A DNA stretch of 44,696 nt, taken from Acidobacteriota bacterium. GTDB lineage: Bacteria > Acidobacteriota > Thermoanaerobaculia > Gp7-AA8. Shown here one piece after another: positions 37,857 through 44,696 of the stretch. Numbering within the stretch: the stretch's first letter is position 1; every line of letters begins with the position of its first letter. The notes under the pieces are model-generated. The model had not been told where the DNA came from. It made no database searches and saw only the letters and a list, made by a program, of their open reading frames with translations. The position numbers and the translations under genes were made by a program. Where the stretch lies: the NCBI GenBank assembly GCA_025463165.1, contig JAOBAU010000026.1, positions 1 to 44,696 on the forward strand. Reading direction: 5' to 3'.

Positions 37857-38813
37857 ATGAACGTCATTGAAGTCTCAGGACTGAAGAAACAGTACCGTTC
37901 GACGCTGCGCGGCGCGCGCATCACCGCGCTCGACGGCGTCGATTTCACCGTCCGCCCCGGCGAGCTCTTCGGCCTGCTCGGTCCGAACGGCGCCGGCAAA
38001 ACGACCACCGTGAAAATCCTGCTCGGACTGACGCGCGCCACGTCGGGCAACGCGAAGGTTTGCGGTCTCGACGTGAGCGATCCGGAAAGCCGCCGCCGCG
38101 TCGGTTACCTGCCGGAAGGTCACAAGATCCCCGGCTATCTGACGCCGCGTCAGACGCTTTCGATCTTCGGCCGGATGTCGGGGATGGACAACGCCACGAT
38201 CGCGCGCCGCACCGGCGAGCTGCTCGAGATTCTGCATCTCTCGAAATGGCTCGACGTCCGCGTGAAGAAGTTCTCGAAAGGAATGACGCAGCGCATCGGT
38301 CTCGCCTGTGCGCTCATCCATTCGCCGGATGTCTTATTGCTCGACGAACCGACTGACGGTGTCGATCCGGTCGGACGCCGCGAGATTCGCGACATCCTCC
38401 GCGACGTCGCCCGCGAGCACGGAACCGCCGTGCTGCTCAACTCGCATCTGCTGTCCGAGATCGAGCTGACGTGCGATCGCGTCGCGGTGCTGCGCACCGG
38501 CAAAGTCGCGGCCGAAGGAACGATCGACGAGCTCACACGCCGCTCGCCGAAATACAAGCTGATCGCAACGCCGGTCGATGATGCCCTGCTGACGATTTTC
38601 CGCGACACCGGCGCGACGGCCGATCGCGTGAACGGACACGTCGAGCTCGGCGTCACTGACCTCGATCACCTCAACGCGATCGTCGACAAAGTGCGCGCAC
38701 GCGGCGCCGTCATCTCCGAGCTTTCTCCGATGCGGTCGACTCTCGAAGACGTTTTCGTCGATCTGGTCAAAGCGGCCGACGTCACCGTCGGCGCGACGAT
38801 GGAGGCGAAATGA
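37857..38813 (+). CDS. ABC-2 type transporter ATP-binding protein
   Basis: This 318-aa ATPase drives the adjacent permease. It has Walker A GPNGAGKT, the Q-loop region VGYLPEGHKIPGYLTP, a variant signature FSKGM (in place of LSGGQ), Walker B LLLDEP followed by DGVDP, and the H-loop His in LLNSHLLSE. A C-terminal extension of about 90 residues is typical of DrrA/NatA-like exporters. The substrate could be a drug, lipid, polysaccharide or signalling molecule. It overlaps the permease gene by 4 nt. The next gene codes for a secreted protein that may belong to the same transport unit. Confidence 0.92.
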   Translation: MNVIEVSGLKKQYRSTLRGARITALDGVDFTVRPGELFGLLGPNGAGKTTTVKILLGLTRATSGNAKVCGLDVSDPESRRRVGYLPEGHKIPGYLTPRQTLSIFGRMSGMDNATIARRTGELLEILHLSKWLDVRVKKFSKGMTQRIGLACALIHSPDVLLLDEPTDGVDPVGRREIRDILRDVAREHGTAVLLNSHLLSEIELTCDRVAVLRTGKVAAEGTIDELTRRSPKYKLIATPVDDALLTIFRDTGATADRVNGHVELGVTDLDHLNAIVDKVRARGAVISELSPMRSTLEDVFVDLVKAADVTVGATMEAK

Positions 38814-39661
38814 AAACGCTCTACGCAAACATCGAAGACGTGATGCGCGAAGCGGCCGCGCGCTGGACGCTGCTCGCTTACTTCACGCTCTCGAGCGTCT
38901 TTCTCGTCATCTTCGCGGCAGCGATCAATCTCGACATCGTCAACGGCTCGCTCGCCGGCGCGCAGCTCTTCGGCAAAGACATGTCGGTGCATGACGGTCT
39001 GCCGATCGACAAGCTCGTGCTCGGATTCGAATCCGGTTTCTCCGGTTTTCTCTACGTGCTCTGCACGTTCCTCGCGATCTTCGCGACCGCGCATCTCGTG
39101 CCGCGCATGCAGGAAAAGGGAACCGTCGATCTCTATCTTTCGCGTCCCGTCTCGCGCGTGAAACTGCTGCTGTCGCGCTACGTCGCCGGTTTGATTCTCG
39201 CCGGCACGAACGTCTTCTATCTCATCACGTCGATCTGGCTGATCGTGATGTGGAAGACGCACGTTTTCCATCCGCGCTTTTTTCTCGGCGGGCTGCTGAT
39301 CATGTTCGTGATCGCCGTGCTGCTCGCCTTCGCTTTTCTGATCGGCGTCGTCACGTCGTCGACCGCGGTCTCGATCATGGGGAGCTACGGTCTCTTCTTC
39401 TTCGGGATCATGCTCGCCGGGCATGATCGCTTCGCCGCCGCCGTTTCGAAGGAATGGCAGGCAACGCTGATTCAGGCGATGTACTGGGTCGTGCCGAAGA
39501 CGCTGGAGATGGCGAAAGCCGTCGTCGCATTTGTCTCCGGCGCCTCCGCTCCCGAACAGATTCAGTCATCACTCGCACTCGGACCGTTTCTTTCCACCGC
39601 CGCATTCGGCATCGGCTGTCTCGTCCTCGCCTCATGGTTGTTCCAACGAAAGGAGTTCTAG
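38810..39661 (+). CDS. ABC-2 type transporter permease
   Basis: This 283-aa membrane protein has about six hydrophobic segments: near residues 19-42, 76-96, 120-146, 160-183, 187-206 and 256-277. It fits the ABC-2 permease layout with LYLSRPVSRVKLLLSRYVAGL, a motif common in NosY-like or multidrug permeases. A long extracytoplasmic loop follows helix 1. The start overlaps the ATPase stop as ATGA, and the stop is 2 nt before the next gene's start. The pair should form a homodimeric exporter; the cargo is unknown. Confidence 0.87.
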   Translation: MKTLYANIEDVMREAAARWTLLAYFTLSSVFLVIFAAAINLDIVNGSLAGAQLFGKDMSVHDGLPIDKLVLGFESGFSGFLYVLCTFLAIFATAHLVPRMQEKGTVDLYLSRPVSRVKLLLSRYVAGLILAGTNVFYLITSIWLIVMWKTHVFHPRFFLGGLLIMFVIAVLLAFAFLIGVVTSSTAVSIMGSYGLFFFGIMLAGHDRFAAAVSKEWQATLIQAMYWVVPKTLEMAKAVVAFVSGASAPEQIQSSLALGPFLSTAAFGIGCLVLASWLFQRKEF

Positions 39662-39663
39662 TC

Positions 39664-40620
39664 ATGAAAAGGATTCTCACCACCGCAGCACTGGTCGCAC
39701 TTGGCGCAGTCTCAGCGTTCGCGAAAAACGACGCACTCTCACTGATTCCGAATGACGCGGTCACCGTCGGCGTCGTCCGCATTGGCGAGCTTCGTACGAG
39801 CCCGCTCTCGCTGATCCTCTTCCAGCACACCGACAAGATGAGCAGCAACGGCGAGGGCGATCGGTTCCTCACCGACGCCGGTCTCGATGTGAAGAAAGAC
39901 ATCGACGTGCTCGTCGTCAGCACCGCGCCGGTCACGACGCTCGGCAGCGACGCGAAAGTGCTCGTCGCCGCTGACGGCCGTTTCAACGTCGAGCGCCTGA
40001 CGAATGCGCTCGTGGCGCGCGGCGCCGTGAAGAAGACGACCGCCAACGGCGCGTACTTCCTCATGCCGGAGTCGAAGGAGCACGATCGCGGACATGGCAA
40101 CGGAGCGGTCGCGTTCCCCGATTCGCATCTCGCGCTGCTCGGCAGCGAGTCAGCGGTGACGGAAGCGCTCGCAGATCGCGCCGCCGGCGGAACGACGTTC
40201 GGTACGGCGTCGGGACTCGGCCGCGAAATGTCGCGCATCGACACGAAAGCAACCGCGTGGGCTCTCGTCGACGTCGTTCGCGCGAAGCGTCTCGGCTCCG
40301 CCGCAACGCACAGCAATCACGACAACTTCAACGCCGCGCTGAAGAATGTTTCGACGATCGCGGTGTGGGCAACCGACACCGGCGACTCGCTGAAGATCGG
40401 CGCGTTCGGTCTTTCGCACGATGCCGAAACGCTGCAGCTCGTCGAAGACACCGTTCGCGGCGCACTCTCGATGCTGCGCCTCGCCGCGCAGGAAAAATCG
40501 CCCGACATGGTCTCGCTGCTGCGCCGCTTCAACGTGTCGCGCAACGAAGAGTCGGTGACGGTGAGCGGAACGGTTCCGGCCGATTCGCTGAAGACGTTCG
40601 CCGCGAAACAGATGAAGTAG
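39664..40620 (+). CDS. Secreted protein of unknown function linked to ABC-2 exporter
   Basis: This 318-aa protein has a signal peptide (about 1-20; ILTTAALVALGAVSAFA) and no lipobox, so it is probably periplasmic or secreted. The mature part begins DALSLIPNDAVTVGVVRIGEL, a pattern of proteins that evaluate per-site scores in a beta-rich repeat, but I recognise no family. Two roughly similar halves may exist (VLVAADGRFNVERLTNAL and IGAFGLSHDAETLQLVEDTV). The ATG at 39664 has AAAGGAG at ideal spacing. It follows the permease gene by 2 nt, so it probably acts with the exporter. It ends at a bidirectional hairpin. Confidence 0.78.
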   Translation: MKRILTTAALVALGAVSAFAKNDALSLIPNDAVTVGVVRIGELRTSPLSLILFQHTDKMSSNGEGDRFLTDAGLDVKKDIDVLVVSTAPVTTLGSDAKVLVAADGRFNVERLTNALVARGAVKKTTANGAYFLMPESKEHDRGHGNGAVAFPDSHLALLGSESAVTEALADRAAGGTTFGTASGLGREMSRIDTKATAWALVDVVRAKRLGSAATHSNHDNFNAALKNVSTIAVWATDTGDSLKIGAFGLSHDAETLQLVEDTVRGALSMLRLAAQEKSPDMVSLLRRFNVSRNEESVTVSGTVPADSLKTFAAKQMK

Positions 40621-40661: not shown

Positions 40662-41369
40662 CTACACGAACCGCCGCAAATGCTCCCGCCACCACGGCCA
40701 GTCATGGCCAAACTGTCCCGGCCAGATCTCCAGATGGTTCGGGATTCCCTTCGCCCACAAGAGGCTCGAGAAATCGCGATTCTGCTGCACGAGTGAATCG
40801 TTCTCGCCAGTGGCAATCACCCAGTTCACGCGCGCCAGTTTCCCCGCCCATTCCGCATCCATGTTCGGGATGTTCGACACGGGACAGTTGAAGTAGCAGT
40901 TGTCGTCCCAGTAGCCGTCGAGGAATGAGTGGATGTCGTACACGCCGGAGAAACAGATGGCGCGGCTGACGACGTCGGGATATCGCGTGGCGAAGTTCGA
41001 CGCGTGATACGCGCCGAAGCTCGCGCCGTAGACGACGAGATCGCCGCGTTGCGCGCGATTGAAGATGTACGGCACGAGCTCGTGCCGCAGGTACTGGTCG
41101 TACTGAGCGTGACGCGCGGCGCGAACCGCCGGATGCACGTTCTTGTTGTACCAGCTCTCATTGTTCACCGCGTCGACCGAGATCAGCTGAATCTCGCCGT
41201 TGTTCACCTTGTCTTCGAGGGAGCCGGTGAGATGGAAATCTTCGTTCTCTTTGTAGCTGCCGCTCGAAGTCGGGAACAGCAGCACGGGCCGGCCGAACTT
41301 GCCGAACCAGAGGAACTCCATCTCACGGCCGAGCGAGGGACTCCACCACTTCACGTATTCGCGATACAT
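40662..41369 (-). CDS. Alpha/beta-hydrolase esterase
   Basis: This 235-aa protein is an esterase of the alpha/beta-hydrolase fold, related to the esterase-D/PHB-depolymerase group. The nucleophile is Ser117 in GASFG (115-119), and a His near residue 224 (FGHDWPWW) completes the likely triad. The N-terminus REMEFLWFGKFGRPVLLFPTS has no signal peptide. The substrate is unknown. It is divergent from the ATP-grasp gene through a 35-nt spacer, and the two promoters appear to overlap. A role in hydrolysing a product or a side chain of that pathway is an inference. Confidence 0.85.
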   Translation of the reverse strand: MYREYVKWWSPSLGREMEFLWFGKFGRPVLLFPTSSGSYKENEDFHLTGSLEDKVNNGEIQLISVDAVNNESWYNKNVHPAVRAARHAQYDQYLRHELVPYIFNRAQRGDLVVYGASFGAYHASNFATRYPDVVSRAICFSGVYDIHSFLDGYWDDNCYFNCPVSNIPNMDAEWAGKLARVNWVIATGENDSLVQQNRDFSSLLWAKGIPNHLEIWPGQFGHDWPWWREHLRRFV

Positions 41370-41382
41370 ATCGAGGGCGGCG

Positions 41383-41388
41383 ATTGTA
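41383..41388 (-). promoter_or_regulatory. Putative esterase promoter (-10), with -35 at 41407-41412
   Basis: TACAAT on the minus strand lies 13 nt before the esterase start. TTGCTC lies 18 nt further upstream, inside the divergent gene, giving the best -35/-10 pair found in the window. Confidence 0.45.
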
Positions 41389-41389
41389 T

Positions 41390-41395
41390 TAGGAT
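41390..41395 (+). promoter_or_regulatory. Putative -10 hexamer of the ligase operon
   Basis: TAGGAT lies 9 nt before the ATP-grasp start and one base from the divergent esterase -10 box. RNA polymerase should not be able to occupy both at once, which would make the two units mutually exclusive at initiation. Confidence 0.35.
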
Positions 41396-41404
41396 CGCCA
41401 ACTT

Positions 41405-42367
41405 ATGAGCAAAAAACGCATCGGAATCCTCTTCGGCCAGGAAGACACGTTCCCATGGGCGCTGATCGACGCGATCAATGCGCGCGGCGGCGACGAGATC
41501 GACGCCGGCCCGGTCGAGATCTCGTATCTGAAAGACGATGGCGTCTTTCCGTACTCGCTGATCCTCGATCGAATCTCGCACGAAGTGCTGTTCTATCGCA
41601 CGTATCTGAAGTGCGCGGCGGCGTCCGGCGTGAAGATCGTCAACAATCCGATCTGGTGGTCGGCCGACGACAAGTTCTTCGACAACCTCGTCGCGAAAGC
41701 AGCGAACGTCGCGGTGCCGCGCACCGTGCTGCTGCCGCACAAAGAATATCCGCCGAACACCAACGACAAATCGTTCCGCAATATGCGCTTCGTGAATTGG
41801 GACGAGGTCTTCACATACCTCGGCTTCCCGATCTTCATGAAGCCGGCGTATGGCGGCGGCTGGAAAGACGTATACAAGTGCGACAACACCGCCGAGTTCT
41901 TCGCCGCGTACGACCAGACGCGCGACCTGACGATGATGGCGCAGGAAGCGATCGAGTTCACCGCGTACTACCGCTGCTACGTGCTCGGCCGCAATCGCGT
42001 CCGCATCATGATGTACGACCCGAAGCAGCCGCATCATCTGCGCTACGTCGCGAACTACCACACGCCGCCGGAACTCGAAGCGCGCATCAAACGCGACGCC
42101 ATCGCGCTTTGCGAAGGACTCGGCTACGACATGAACACGGTTGAGTTCGCGCTGCGCGACGGCATCCCGTACGCGATCGACTTCATGAACTGCGCGCCGG
42201 ACGCCGATCGCGCATCGGTCGGTGACGAGAACTTCGAGTGGATGGTCTCGAACATGGCCGAGGTGCTGATCGACATCGTCAGGTCGGGACGGAAGCTGGA
42301 GCTGACCGGCAACTGGCCGACAGTCATGAAGACGGAGAAACCGATCGACGAGCCAATCACGGCATAA
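41405..42367 (+). CDS. ATP-grasp ligase (RimK-like)
   Basis: This 320-aa protein has the ATP-grasp layout: an N-terminal Rossmann-like pre-ATP domain (KRIGILFGQEDTFPWALIDAI), then central ATP-binding segments with IFMKPAYGGGWKDV (phosphate loop and Lys) and MMAQEAIEF. The C-terminal metal-binding region has EFALRDGIPYAIDFMNC, where the usual Glu-x-Asn motif is present in a modified form (DFMNCAPD). Such enzymes join a carboxylate to an amine via an acyl-phosphate. The substrate is unknown. The stop overlaps the next gene as TAATG, so it is coupled to the GCS2 ligase. No signal peptide is present. Confidence 0.82.
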   Translation: MSKKRIGILFGQEDTFPWALIDAINARGGDEIDAGPVEISYLKDDGVFPYSLILDRISHEVLFYRTYLKCAAASGVKIVNNPIWWSADDKFFDNLVAKAANVAVPRTVLLPHKEYPPNTNDKSFRNMRFVNWDEVFTYLGFPIFMKPAYGGGWKDVYKCDNTAEFFAAYDQTRDLTMMAQEAIEFTAYYRCYVLGRNRVRIMMYDPKQPHHLRYVANYHTPPELEARIKRDAIALCEGLGYDMNTVEFALRDGIPYAIDFMNCAPDADRASVGDENFEWMVSNMAEVLIDIVRSGRKLELTGNWPTVMKTEKPIDEPITA

Positions 42368-43488
42368 TGACGGACATGGCCGACCCAACCTTCACCCTCG
42401 GGATCGAAGAAGAGTTTCAGGTCGTCGATCCACAGACCAGAGAGCTCAAATCTCACATCCAGGAGATGTTCGCCGAGGGTGAGAAGCGGCTGAAGGACGA
42501 GATCAAACGGGAGATGCACGATCCCGTGATCGAAGTCGGAACACCGATCTGCCGCGACGTCGCGCACGCACGCCGCGAAGTGACGCGGCTGCGCGGCGAG
42601 ATCATCCGCCTCGCGCGCGAAAACGGTCTGCGCATCGCCGCCGCCGGAACGCATCCGATCTCGCACTGGAAGGAAGTGTCGATCACCGACGCTCCGCGCT
42701 ACGACCAGATCGTTTACGACCTGCAGATGGTCGCGCGCGCCAATCTCATCTTCGGGTTACACGTTCACGTCGCCATCGAAGATCTCGAAACGCGCGTGCA
42801 GATCATGAATGCGGCGCGCTACTTCCTGCCGCACATCTTCGCGCTATCGGTGAACTCGCCGTTCTGGTGCGGCTCGAACACCGGCTGGAAAAGCTATCGC
42901 GCGAAAGTGTTCGAGCGTTTCCCGCGCACCGGTCTGCCTGATTACTTTCGCACGAAGTCGGAGTTCGAGCAGTACGTCAGCACGCTCATCGCCACGAACT
43001 CGATCGACAACGCCAAGAAGATCTGGTGGGACGTGCGGCCGCATCCGTTCTTCCCGACGCTCGAGTACCGCATCTGCGACGTGCCGCTGCGCGTCGACGA
43101 AACGATCTGCTTCGCCGCGCTTTTCCAGGCGATCACCGTCAAGCTCTACCGGCTCTACAAGCAGAACCTCAGCTGGCGTCTGTATCGCCGTTCGCTGCTG
43201 CACGAAAACAAAGCGCGCGCGGCTCGGTTCGGCACGGAAGGCAAGCTGATCGATTTCGGGAAGAGTGAGGAAGTGCCGTTCGCGGTGCTGCTCGAAGAGT
43301 TGCTCGAGTTCATCGATGACGTCGTCGACGATCTCGGCTCGCGCAAGGAAGTCGAATACGCGCGGCAGCTCGTTCCAAAGAACACAGGCGCGGACCGCCA
43401 GCTGCGCGTTTTCGAGGAGACGAAGGACCTGCGCGCCGTCGTCGACTACATCATCAACGAAACGGAGCACGGCATCCCGCTTGCGTAA
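42367..43488 (+). CDS. GCS2-family carboxylate-amine ligase (YbdK-like)
   Basis: This 373-aa protein belongs to the glutamate-cysteine ligase 2 family, which makes gamma-glutamyl or similar amides with ATP. It shows the family hallmark TLGIEEEFQVVDPQT near residues 9-23, EVGTPICRDVAHARREV, GLHVHVAI (metal/substrate His residues), SVNSPFWCGSNTGWKSYR and the Arg-rich C-terminal LEYRICDVPLRVD. The start ATG overlaps the upstream TAA by one base; a second in-frame ATG is three codons on. Whether the product is gamma-glutamylcysteine is unproven, since YbdK proteins have weak activity on that substrate. It forms an operon with the ATP-grasp and amidotransferase-like genes. Confidence 0.9.
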   Translation: MTDMADPTFTLGIEEEFQVVDPQTRELKSHIQEMFAEGEKRLKDEIKREMHDPVIEVGTPICRDVAHARREVTRLRGEIIRLARENGLRIAAAGTHPISHWKEVSITDAPRYDQIVYDLQMVARANLIFGLHVHVAIEDLETRVQIMNAARYFLPHIFALSVNSPFWCGSNTGWKSYRAKVFERFPRTGLPDYFRTKSEFEQYVSTLIATNSIDNAKKIWWDVRPHPFFPTLEYRICDVPLRVDETICFAALFQAITVKLYRLYKQNLSWRLYRRSLLHENKARAARFGTEGKLIDFGKSEEVPFAVLLEELLEFIDDVVDDLGSRKEVEYARQLVPKNTGADRQLRVFEETKDLRAVVDYIINETEHGIPLA

Positions 43489-43498
43489 TTCGCCCGAA

Positions 43499-44482
43499 AT
43501 GAACAGCCTCGACATTCACAAGCCGTCCGAATTTTTCGAGTACGTGAGGCTCGACGATTCGGTTCCGGAACGCCGCGACGACCGCATCGACGTCGCGCTG
43601 CTCGACCTCAACCATTCGTGGCCGAACGTCGGTCACGATTCGCTGATCCACGCGATCGCGGAAGGCGCCGAGTCGCATCGGGAAGAGCTCGCCGGCGCCG
43701 GCGTGAAAGTGCGCGTGCTTTCGTACGACGTGCGCCGCCGCCTGCTGGTGCCGGAGTCGCCGAACGGACGCTTCCGGCTGTATGTCGGCACCGGCGGTCC
43801 CGGCCACCTCGATCCGCGGCTCAACGACGGCGTGTCGGAGTTCAGCCAGGGAATCAGCGAAGATCCGTCGTGGGAAGCGCCGCTGTTCCGGCTCTTCGAC
43901 GCCATTCACAAACACAAAGAAGCAGCGCTGCTGGCGATCTGTCATTCGTTCGGATTGGTTTGTCGCTGGAGCGGCGTGGCGCGTCCCGAACTGCGCGCGG
44001 AGAAAAGCTCCGGCATGCCGCTCAACCGGCTGACCGACGATGCGCTCGCGCACCCATTCTTCCGCGAGTTTGCGAAGGAGCTTGGCGATCACCGGCACTT
44101 CCGTGTCGTCGACAATCGGCTCTTCGATCTCGTCGTCGACAAGCTCGGCAGCGCGACGCCGATCGCGACCGAACACGAGGACAGCAGCGCGCTGACGATG
44201 ATCGAGCTGGCGCGACACGCCGACGGCACACCGCGCATGCTCGGCGTCAATCACCATCCGGAGATCGTCGACCGCGAGCACATCCTGGCCGTCCTCGCCG
44301 AGAAGCGCGCGCACGGCGACGTCTCCGAGAAGTGGTACCGCGAGCGCGCCGAAACGATGTCCGAACTTTTCCACGGCGAGCGCGAACGACAGAGCCGTGT
44401 GACGTCGCGGTACACGCTGCTCGAACCGCTGCGCCGGCAGATCGGGCGGCTGGTGATGGAGCGTTGTTCCGTCACGTCGTGA
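43499..44482 (+). CDS. Class-I glutamine amidotransferase-like protein
   Basis: This 327-aa protein contains a class-I amidotransferase fold: the oxyanion-side motif VGTGGPGHLD (about 96-105), nucleophile Cys148 in AICHSFG and a catalytic His253/Glu255 in HHPE. Family members release ammonia from glutamine for a partner synthetase or act as gamma-glutamyl hydrolases. It lacks a fused synthetase, so an ammonia acceptor or gamma-glutamyl peptide may come from the adjacent GCS2 and ATP-grasp enzymes. It begins 10 nt after the GCS2 stop, and its stop overlaps the GTG of the next gene as GTGA. A long N-terminal extension of about 30 residues is atypical. Confidence 0.85.
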   Translation: MNSLDIHKPSEFFEYVRLDDSVPERRDDRIDVALLDLNHSWPNVGHDSLIHAIAEGAESHREELAGAGVKVRVLSYDVRRRLLVPESPNGRFRLYVGTGGPGHLDPRLNDGVSEFSQGISEDPSWEAPLFRLFDAIHKHKEAALLAICHSFGLVCRWSGVARPELRAEKSSGMPLNRLTDDALAHPFFREFAKELGDHRHFRVVDNRLFDLVVDKLGSATPIATEHEDSSALTMIELARHADGTPRMLGVNHHPEIVDREHILAVLAEKRAHGDVSEKWYRERAETMSELFHGERERQSRVTSRYTLLEPLRRQIGRLVMERCSVTS

Positions 44483-44696
44483 AGCGCGCGCTGCTCCTGC
44501 TGCTGTTCGTCGGTTGCGCAACGTCGCGTCCTGCTGATGTTCGCGTGGCAATGAACGGCTTCATGAGCGCGCTCAATGCCGTCAATCTCGAAGCGATGTC
44601 GGCGTACTTCGCGGATGACATCACGGCGTTCGTTCCTTCCGCGCGCGCCGATCGCGTCGATGGAAAAGCAGCCGTCGTCGAGATCTTTCGGAACTT
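44479..44696 (+). CDS. NTF2/SnoaL-like lipoprotein, 3' end outside the window
   Basis: At least 72 residues are encoded before the window ends. The N-terminus is a lipoprotein signal with lipobox VGC (Cys13) after a short Leu-rich core. The following VRVAMNGFMSALNAVNLEAMSAYFADDITAFVPS matches the start of NTF2-like (SnoaL/DUF4440) domains, which are small ligand-binding or isomerase-like folds. The start is a GTG, sharing GTGA with the stop of the amidotransferase gene. Co-transcription with the ligase operon is likely. The fold call is a pattern match only. Confidence 0.68.
   Translation, partial: MKRALLLLLFVGCATSRPADVRVAMNGFMSALNAVNLEAMSAYFADDITAFVPSARADRVDGKAAVVEIFRN

Follow-up and report, generated by a model that had tools for sequence, protein, structure and literature searches.

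Operons in which ATP-grasp and COOH-NH2 ligases are linked often perform successive ligations in the synthesis of peptide metabolites (Burroughs et al. 2015, PMC4431377), and another family of carboxylate-amine ligases adjoins a GAT-like thiol peptidase, for which a glutathione-like or peptide metabolite has been predicted (Iyer et al. 2008, PMC2588565). The locus described here lies at the end of contig JAOBAU010000026.1 of an Acidobacteriota bacterium (assembly GCA_025463165.1), which was analysed over its whole length of 44,696 nucleotides, referred to below as the window; the contig (C55) comes from a 5.1-Mb draft genome (G000) of the Thermoanaerobaculia type, and the nearest relatives that bear a name are metagenome-assembled genomes of Thermoanaerobaculia/Acidobacteriota. 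Its genes encode an esterase-type alpha/beta hydrolase (EST), a divergent ATP-grasp ligase (ATPG), a YbdK-type carboxylate-amine ligase (GCS2) and a hydrolase with the fold of the class-I glutamine amidotransferases (GATase), here named GAT, and a further family, X3, belongs to the same cassette. The cassette is most reasonably, if by no means surely, read as a pathway dedicated to a small peptide-like metabolite of non-ribosomal origin, built with amide and possibly gamma-glutamyl bonds, together with a hydrolase for its trimming or turnover.

The conservation of the gene neighbourhood was surveyed in two sets of loci, the first consisting of 32 relatives' loci from whole genomes and the second of at least 80 loci found via ATPG in a scan of one genome per species, with about 10 records shared between them. 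Neighbouring families were defined by clustering of open reading frames, and linkage was taken as a position within 6 kb of ATPG. The cassette comprises EST, ATPG, GCS2, GAT and X3 in the window's family (f1), and EST, ATPG, GCS2, PEP4 and X3 in Terriglobia, with a version made up of EST, ATPG, X23 and GAT in Balneolia, Rhodothermia and one member of the Acidobacteriota. Among the 80 listed loci, linkage was found for GCS2 in 56, EST in 54, PEP4 in 38, X3 in 35, GAT in 10 and X23 in 5, and the strand is that of ATPG in every linked copy of GCS2 (56/56), PEP4 (38/38) and GAT (10/10) and in 34 of the 35 copies of X3. EST is co-directional with ATPG in 42 of these loci, including those of Terriglobia, and divergent in 12, as it is here. 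Neighbouring genes mostly touch, the median gaps being 40, 30, -1, 25.5, 1 and 7 nt.

By simple proportion, the chance of a member of one of these families falling within 6 kb of ATPG is well under 1 % for a genome of this size, and the conservation of the linkage is far beyond chance. It extends across classes of Acidobacteriota and to metagenome-assembled genomes of other phyla, which bears out the conserved co-occurrence that an earlier reading of the DNA, made from its letters alone (the sequence-only reading), had proposed to look for. The same reading would have been contradicted by scattering of the genes in relatives, which was largely not observed; family f5 does scatter them, yet X3 and GAT are retained there, as is ATPG with the exception of one genome.

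The families were also counted over whole genomes, in a sample of 61 Acidobacteriota genomes and in a selection of 25 genomes of other classes and phyla. Within the 61, X3 and a hydrolase (GAT or PEP4) agree without exception, 29 genomes having both and 32 neither, while ATPG and X3 occur together in 28 genomes and are jointly missing from 31, with one discordant genome in each direction, one of which (G040) carries X23. No member of these families occurs in either genome of genus g9. X3 occurs in 19 of the 25 chosen genomes. Among the remaining six, X23 is part of the operon in four, and another is represented by a Balneolales contig that ends just after ATPG; the X23 loci in genomes without X3 are L108, L118, L134 and L141. 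In the nine genomes of family f5, ATPG (accompanied by EST), GAT and X3 are scattered over the genome, with X3 and GAT present in 9/9, ATPG in 8/9, and GCS2 absent in 8/9 (the exception being G021). Given that the linkage spans classes of Acidobacteriota and genomes of other phyla, that it survives the re-orientation of EST, and that the families are absent in concert, the interpretation of these genes as a functional set, kept and lost together even where they are scattered, is supported. Bacteroidota-type genomes with ATPG and X3, mostly with GCS2, and without GAT and PEP4 were encountered as well (L079, L082-L084, L110, L112, L124, L129 and L140).

The hydrolase slot of the cassette is occupied by GAT in Thermoanaerobaculia and by PEP4 in Terriglobia. 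GAT and strong PEP4 matches never occur in one genome, either among the 29 cassette-bearing Acidobacteriota genomes or in 15 more elsewhere, and they were never found together in the 25 chosen genomes. PEP4 is an M29-type metallo-aminopeptidase, with 50-54 bits against PF02073 (cut-off 27) and a match to the structure of AmpS (1zjc) at E 7e-6. Six positions, which we take from the motif to be the metal and catalytic ligands of M29 enzymes, are invariant in this family. The presence of an aminopeptidase in the GATase slot lends indirect support to the idea, put forward in the sequence-only reading, that the encoded enzymes both make and trim a peptide-like compound.

In the window, EST (235 aa) is encoded on the minus strand at 40662-41369 and is separated by a 35-nt spacer (41370-41404) from the plus-strand operon, in which ATPG (320 aa, 41405-42367), GCS2 (373 aa, 42367-43488) and GAT (327 aa with a C-terminal helical extension, 43499-44482) are followed by the 5' part of a lipoprotein gene (44479-44696), SnoaL/DUF4440-like according to a sub-threshold profile match. 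ATPG and GCS2 overlap by 1 nt at 42367 (TAATG), a 10-nt gap lies between 43488 and 43499, and GAT overlaps by 4 nt (GTGA) with the lipoprotein gene, which starts with GTG at 44479 and runs off the contig end. A re-check of the open reading frames reproduced exactly the coordinates, overlaps, gap and spacer reported before; with regard to extent, the internal boundaries stand, while the range formerly assigned to the operon begins past the EST gene and ends before X3. A promoter scan of the 35-nt spacer region gave no sigma-70-type match above shuffles.

The operon goes on beyond the window. The SnoaL-like lipoprotein is completed on contig C64 of the same genome, whose first 195 bases code for its C-terminal half, X3 follows at C64:207-1400 (L144, G000:C64 1-1406), and the relative G010 (L032) has the order GAT, lipoprotein, X3. 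Because the lipoprotein halves are split over the two contigs and G010 presents the same order, C55 and C64 are almost certainly adjacent, and the operon very probably consists of ATPG, GCS2, GAT, the lipoprotein and X3 across the break. The lipoprotein, which had been counted as part of the set, occupies this position only in G000 and G010 and was not found there in the other loci examined, and it was rejected as a member of the pathway. ATPG and GCS2 are separated in G010 (L032 7700-14300) by a stretch of about 7 kb that lies largely on the other strand and includes an ABC exporter and a DUF2334 protein. Upstream of the cassette, positions 37857-40620 of the window encode an ABC ATPase, an ABC-2 permease and a protein without a Pfam match, which are conserved at this place in many f1 genomes, probably as a result of synteny.

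Among the ligases, GCS2 is the one most readily classified, scoring 211 bits against PF04107 (cut-off 21) and 523 bits against NF010039 (cut-off 371), with a match to the YbdK structure 1r8g at E 3e-62. Its GhExE motif, defined as a metal/ATP motif in PMC2588565, is intact (LGIEEEF), and E14 and E16 are conserved in 68/68 sequences. ATPG falls by sequence under every Pfam and NCBIfam cut-off, and its fold is confirmed by an AlphaFold model (predicted local distance difference test, pLDDT, 85) that contains both the pre-ATP-grasp and the ATP-grasp fold. Compared with known structures by Foldseek, the model is closest to D-Ala-D-Ala ligases (E 2e-14), and LysX gives template modelling scores (TM-scores) of 0.67/0.78. 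The hallmarks of ATP-grasp enzymes are a linker Lys, a Lys in strand 2, an acidic residue and an ExN motif (PMC4431377). In ATPG, K90, K146, E247, D259 and N262 are identical in 101/101 orthologs, K90 being assigned as the linker Lys by analogy with D-Ala-D-Ala ligase, and the last motif reads D259-x-x-N262 (IDFMN) as opposed to ExN. Weak Pfam matches to PF18299, of the R2K clade, were obtained for 11 of 21 ATPG sequences, and membership of this clade was rejected given that it requires the loss of the linker lysine. A search of plasmids for ATPG gave no match. A distant homologue of about 30 % identity and 425-475 aa is found in other Acidobacteriota (L060 6636-8036, L061 5645-6922, L062 6930-8234); an esterase of the PF00756 type lies close to it, immediately upstream in the case of L061 and L062, and these loci may represent a second, related system.

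X3 (about 400 aa), which lies beyond the contig end and was overlooked in the sequence-only reading, corresponds to no curated family, and single members give sub-threshold Pfam matches to three ATP-grasp families. In an hhalign comparison, its profile aligns with that of X23, a circularly permuted ATP-grasp family with PF14403 above cut-off, around the KP...GxGV region (P 6e-4), and K296, E349, R351 and N383 are invariant in 43/43 members. X3 is thus a probable, not a proven, further ATP-grasp ligase. EST matches PF00756 (47.3 bits, cut-off 22), and its Ser117, Asp191 and His222 are invariant in 63/63 sequences. Many Terriglobia loci have another PF00756 esterase (EST2) beside the cassette, situated upstream of EST and divergent from it (L078, L089, L092, L097, L123 and others).

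GAT remains under every Pfam and NCBIfam cut-off, the window protein matching no GATase profile, and searches of PDB sequences with GAT profiles gave nothing useful, so that only the comparison of folds was informative. The AlphaFold model (pLDDT 90.5) has the class-I GATase fold, with the amidotransferase DnfC and gamma-glutamyl peptidase 1 of Arabidopsis as the best Foldseek matches (E 2-3e-9). The complete Cys-His-Glu set already recognised in the sequence-only reading is confirmed by the alignments, in which C148 (codon at 43940-43942, within AICHSFG) is invariant in 19/19 and H253 and E255 are found in 18/19, the sole exception, L044, being a frameshifted copy. The three residues are also kept in the Balneolia homologs, one of which reaches 22.1 bits against PF00117 (cut-off 22.8). 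Matches of GAT to the HrpB4 and FGase profiles were below cut-off and were dismissed. The nucleophile of class-I GATases lies in the signature C-x-G-x-[QEH], in which the position C+4 is Gln in typical glutaminases. The window protein departs from it, reading C-H-S-F-G, and C+4 is Gly in 15/19 sequences of the family; this loss of the glutamine-binding signature had previously been overlooked.

The chemistry of these families suggests how the proposed pathway might operate. GCS2 would form an acyl phosphate from a carboxylate, which is probably the gamma-carboxylate of Glu, and join it to an amine, and ATPG and X3 might each attach one further unit by the same chemistry, so that two or three successive ligations would give a short peptide-like product. 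GAT or the M29 enzyme would then cut an amide bond, either removing a residue from the product or an intermediate or recycling the product. EST, the least constrained step, might remove an ester-linked group or hydrolyse an ester of the product or a precursor. Several points weigh against the proposal of a peptide-like metabolite. The substrates and the product are predicted from the genes and the chemistry of their families, plain peptide synthesis offers no evident role for EST, and the assignment of X3 to the ATP-grasp ligases is suggested by weak profile matches. In addition, as f5 mostly lacks GCS2, no one composition of the cassette is obligatory, some Bacteroidota have ATPG, X3 and an unlinked GCS2 but neither hydrolase, and the phyletic counts and Fisher values take no account of shared ancestry.

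Alternatively, GAT could be a true glutaminase subunit supplying one of these ligases with ammonia, in the manner of CarA/CarB or PurQ/PurL, and the pathway would then amidate a carboxylate. Standalone GATase subunits exist, and the class-I fold, the Cys-His-Glu set, a GGPG oxyanion-type loop and the Gln retained at C+4 in the Balneolia homologs would all suit such a role; on the other hand, Terriglobia have an M29 peptidase in this slot, and in f5 the GAT gene is unlinked from the ligases. Given the exchange of GAT with an M29 enzyme and the lost glutamine-binding signature, hydrolysis of an amide or peptide bond is preferred over ammonia supply, and the glutaminase role is considered unlikely. 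The arrangement might also reflect nothing but shared ancestry, that is, synteny without functional linkage. The co-conserved ABC-transporter genes upstream in f1 show that synteny explains part of the signal in that family, but linkage across classes and phyla in different surroundings, a re-oriented EST, an exchangeable hydrolase and concerted absence make this account of the whole pattern extremely improbable.

The layout of a GCS2 followed by an ATP-grasp enzyme is that of GshA/GshB, and the product might accordingly be a glutathione-like thiol, in which GCS2 makes gamma-glutamylcysteine and the ATP-grasp ligase adds the last residue; YbdK, the closest solved relative of GCS2, has gamma-glutamyl:cysteine ligase activity, according to the title of Lehmann 2004, cited in PMC2588565. 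A glutathione-type pathway would call for both ligases wherever it occurs, whereas f5, except G021, has kept X3, GAT and, in eight of nine genomes, ATPG in the absence of GCS2. This genome and 51/60 relatives encode the bacillithiol synthase BshC, whether or not they have the cassette, ATPG is closer to D-Ala-D-Ala ligase and LysX than to glutathione synthetase, and a further ligase and two hydrolases would be unneeded. Because BshC occurs irrespective of the cassette and the f5 set mostly lacks GCS2, the low-molecular-weight thiol raised in the sequence-only reading, while possible, is not favoured and appears quite improbable. A modification of a protein or carrier, in which the peptidase takes off amino acids or a short tag that the ligases (in the manner of RimK, LysX or CDC123-like enzymes) have attached, is likewise given little probability. 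By TM-score, the closest structures include those of LysX/ArgX and of the RimK type, and the weak R2K matches point to a clade predicted to modify proteins (PMC4431377), but the linker lysine is retained and small peptides accord no less well with the exchange of two unrelated hydrolases. The compact operons leave no room for a carrier or precursor gene of the kind expected for graspetides and other ribosomally synthesised and post-translationally modified peptides, and none was found in them, the search being limited to the operons and the rest of the genome not having been searched.

Being kept, lost and rearranged together, the five genes point to a single, specific molecule that has a real function in some of the most common soil bacteria, and the fact that one slot holds either a thiol hydrolase or a metallo-aminopeptidase hints directly at which bond is cut. 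It is tentatively suggested that this molecule is a widespread, undescribed small peptide-like metabolite or cofactor: as many as three linked amide ligases would assemble it, and its maturation or turnover would fall to either of two hydrolases that are unrelated and mutually exclusive. Its carriers would be common in Terriglobia and in several families of the Thermoanaerobaculia type, and would include several Bacteroidota and other lineages. Cultured carriers of the cassette are Terriglobus roseus DSM 18391, Bryocella elongata DSM 22489 and Edaphobacter lichenicola. In the complete genome of Terriglobus roseus, a stretch of at least 15 kb with the cassette is present twice, at about 2.46 and 2.92 Mb (L163, L164), the copies being about 460 kb apart and 99.97 % identical.

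Linked amide ligases that make a peptide metabolite are of a known kind, and this particular cassette looks new, precedence relative to the survey of Iyer et al. 2009 not being covered; a full-text search of the literature, outside which that main amidoligase survey lay, gave no description of the cassette, of X3 or of the GAT/M29 exchange. At the level of single enzymes, ATPG shares the fold, the linker Lys, the strand Lys, the acidic residue and the active-site Asn with D-Ala-D-Ala ligase and LysX/ArgX (3r23, 5k2m), and differs in its identity of 15-18 %, in DxxN for ExN and in its place outside all curated families. GAT has the GATase fold with Cys-His-Glu of gamma-glutamyl peptidase 1 and DnfC (9k7l, 8khs), at 13-19 % identity and with a Gly at Cys+4 and extra C-terminal helices. 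The PEP4 of Terriglobia has the six ligand positions of the M29 aminopeptidase AmpS, but is shorter (about 350 aa), resembles it weakly overall and sits inside the cassette.

At the level of whole systems, glutathione biosynthesis (GCS2-type GshA with GshB) similarly uses a GCS2-fold ligase and then an ATP-grasp ligase, whereas the cassette has a further ligase and two hydrolases, coexists with BshC and can dispense with GCS2 in f5. The family of PMC2588565 also places a GCS2-sized ligase beside a GATase-like thiol peptidase; its ligase, however, belongs to a separate family (Clostridium CJD_1902 type, not YbdK/PRK13515), and no ATP-grasp enzyme, esterase or X3 is described with it. The linked peptide-ligase operons (ATP-grasp, COOH-NH2 ligase, GNAT) of PMC4431377 share with the cassette several unrelated amide ligases, frequent peptidases and the lack of a ribosomal precursor, and the cassette, with at least two unrelated amide ligases in tight linkage co-conserved across phyla, agrees with this type of operon, to which it adds EST and a hydrolase slot that alternates between the GATase fold and M29.

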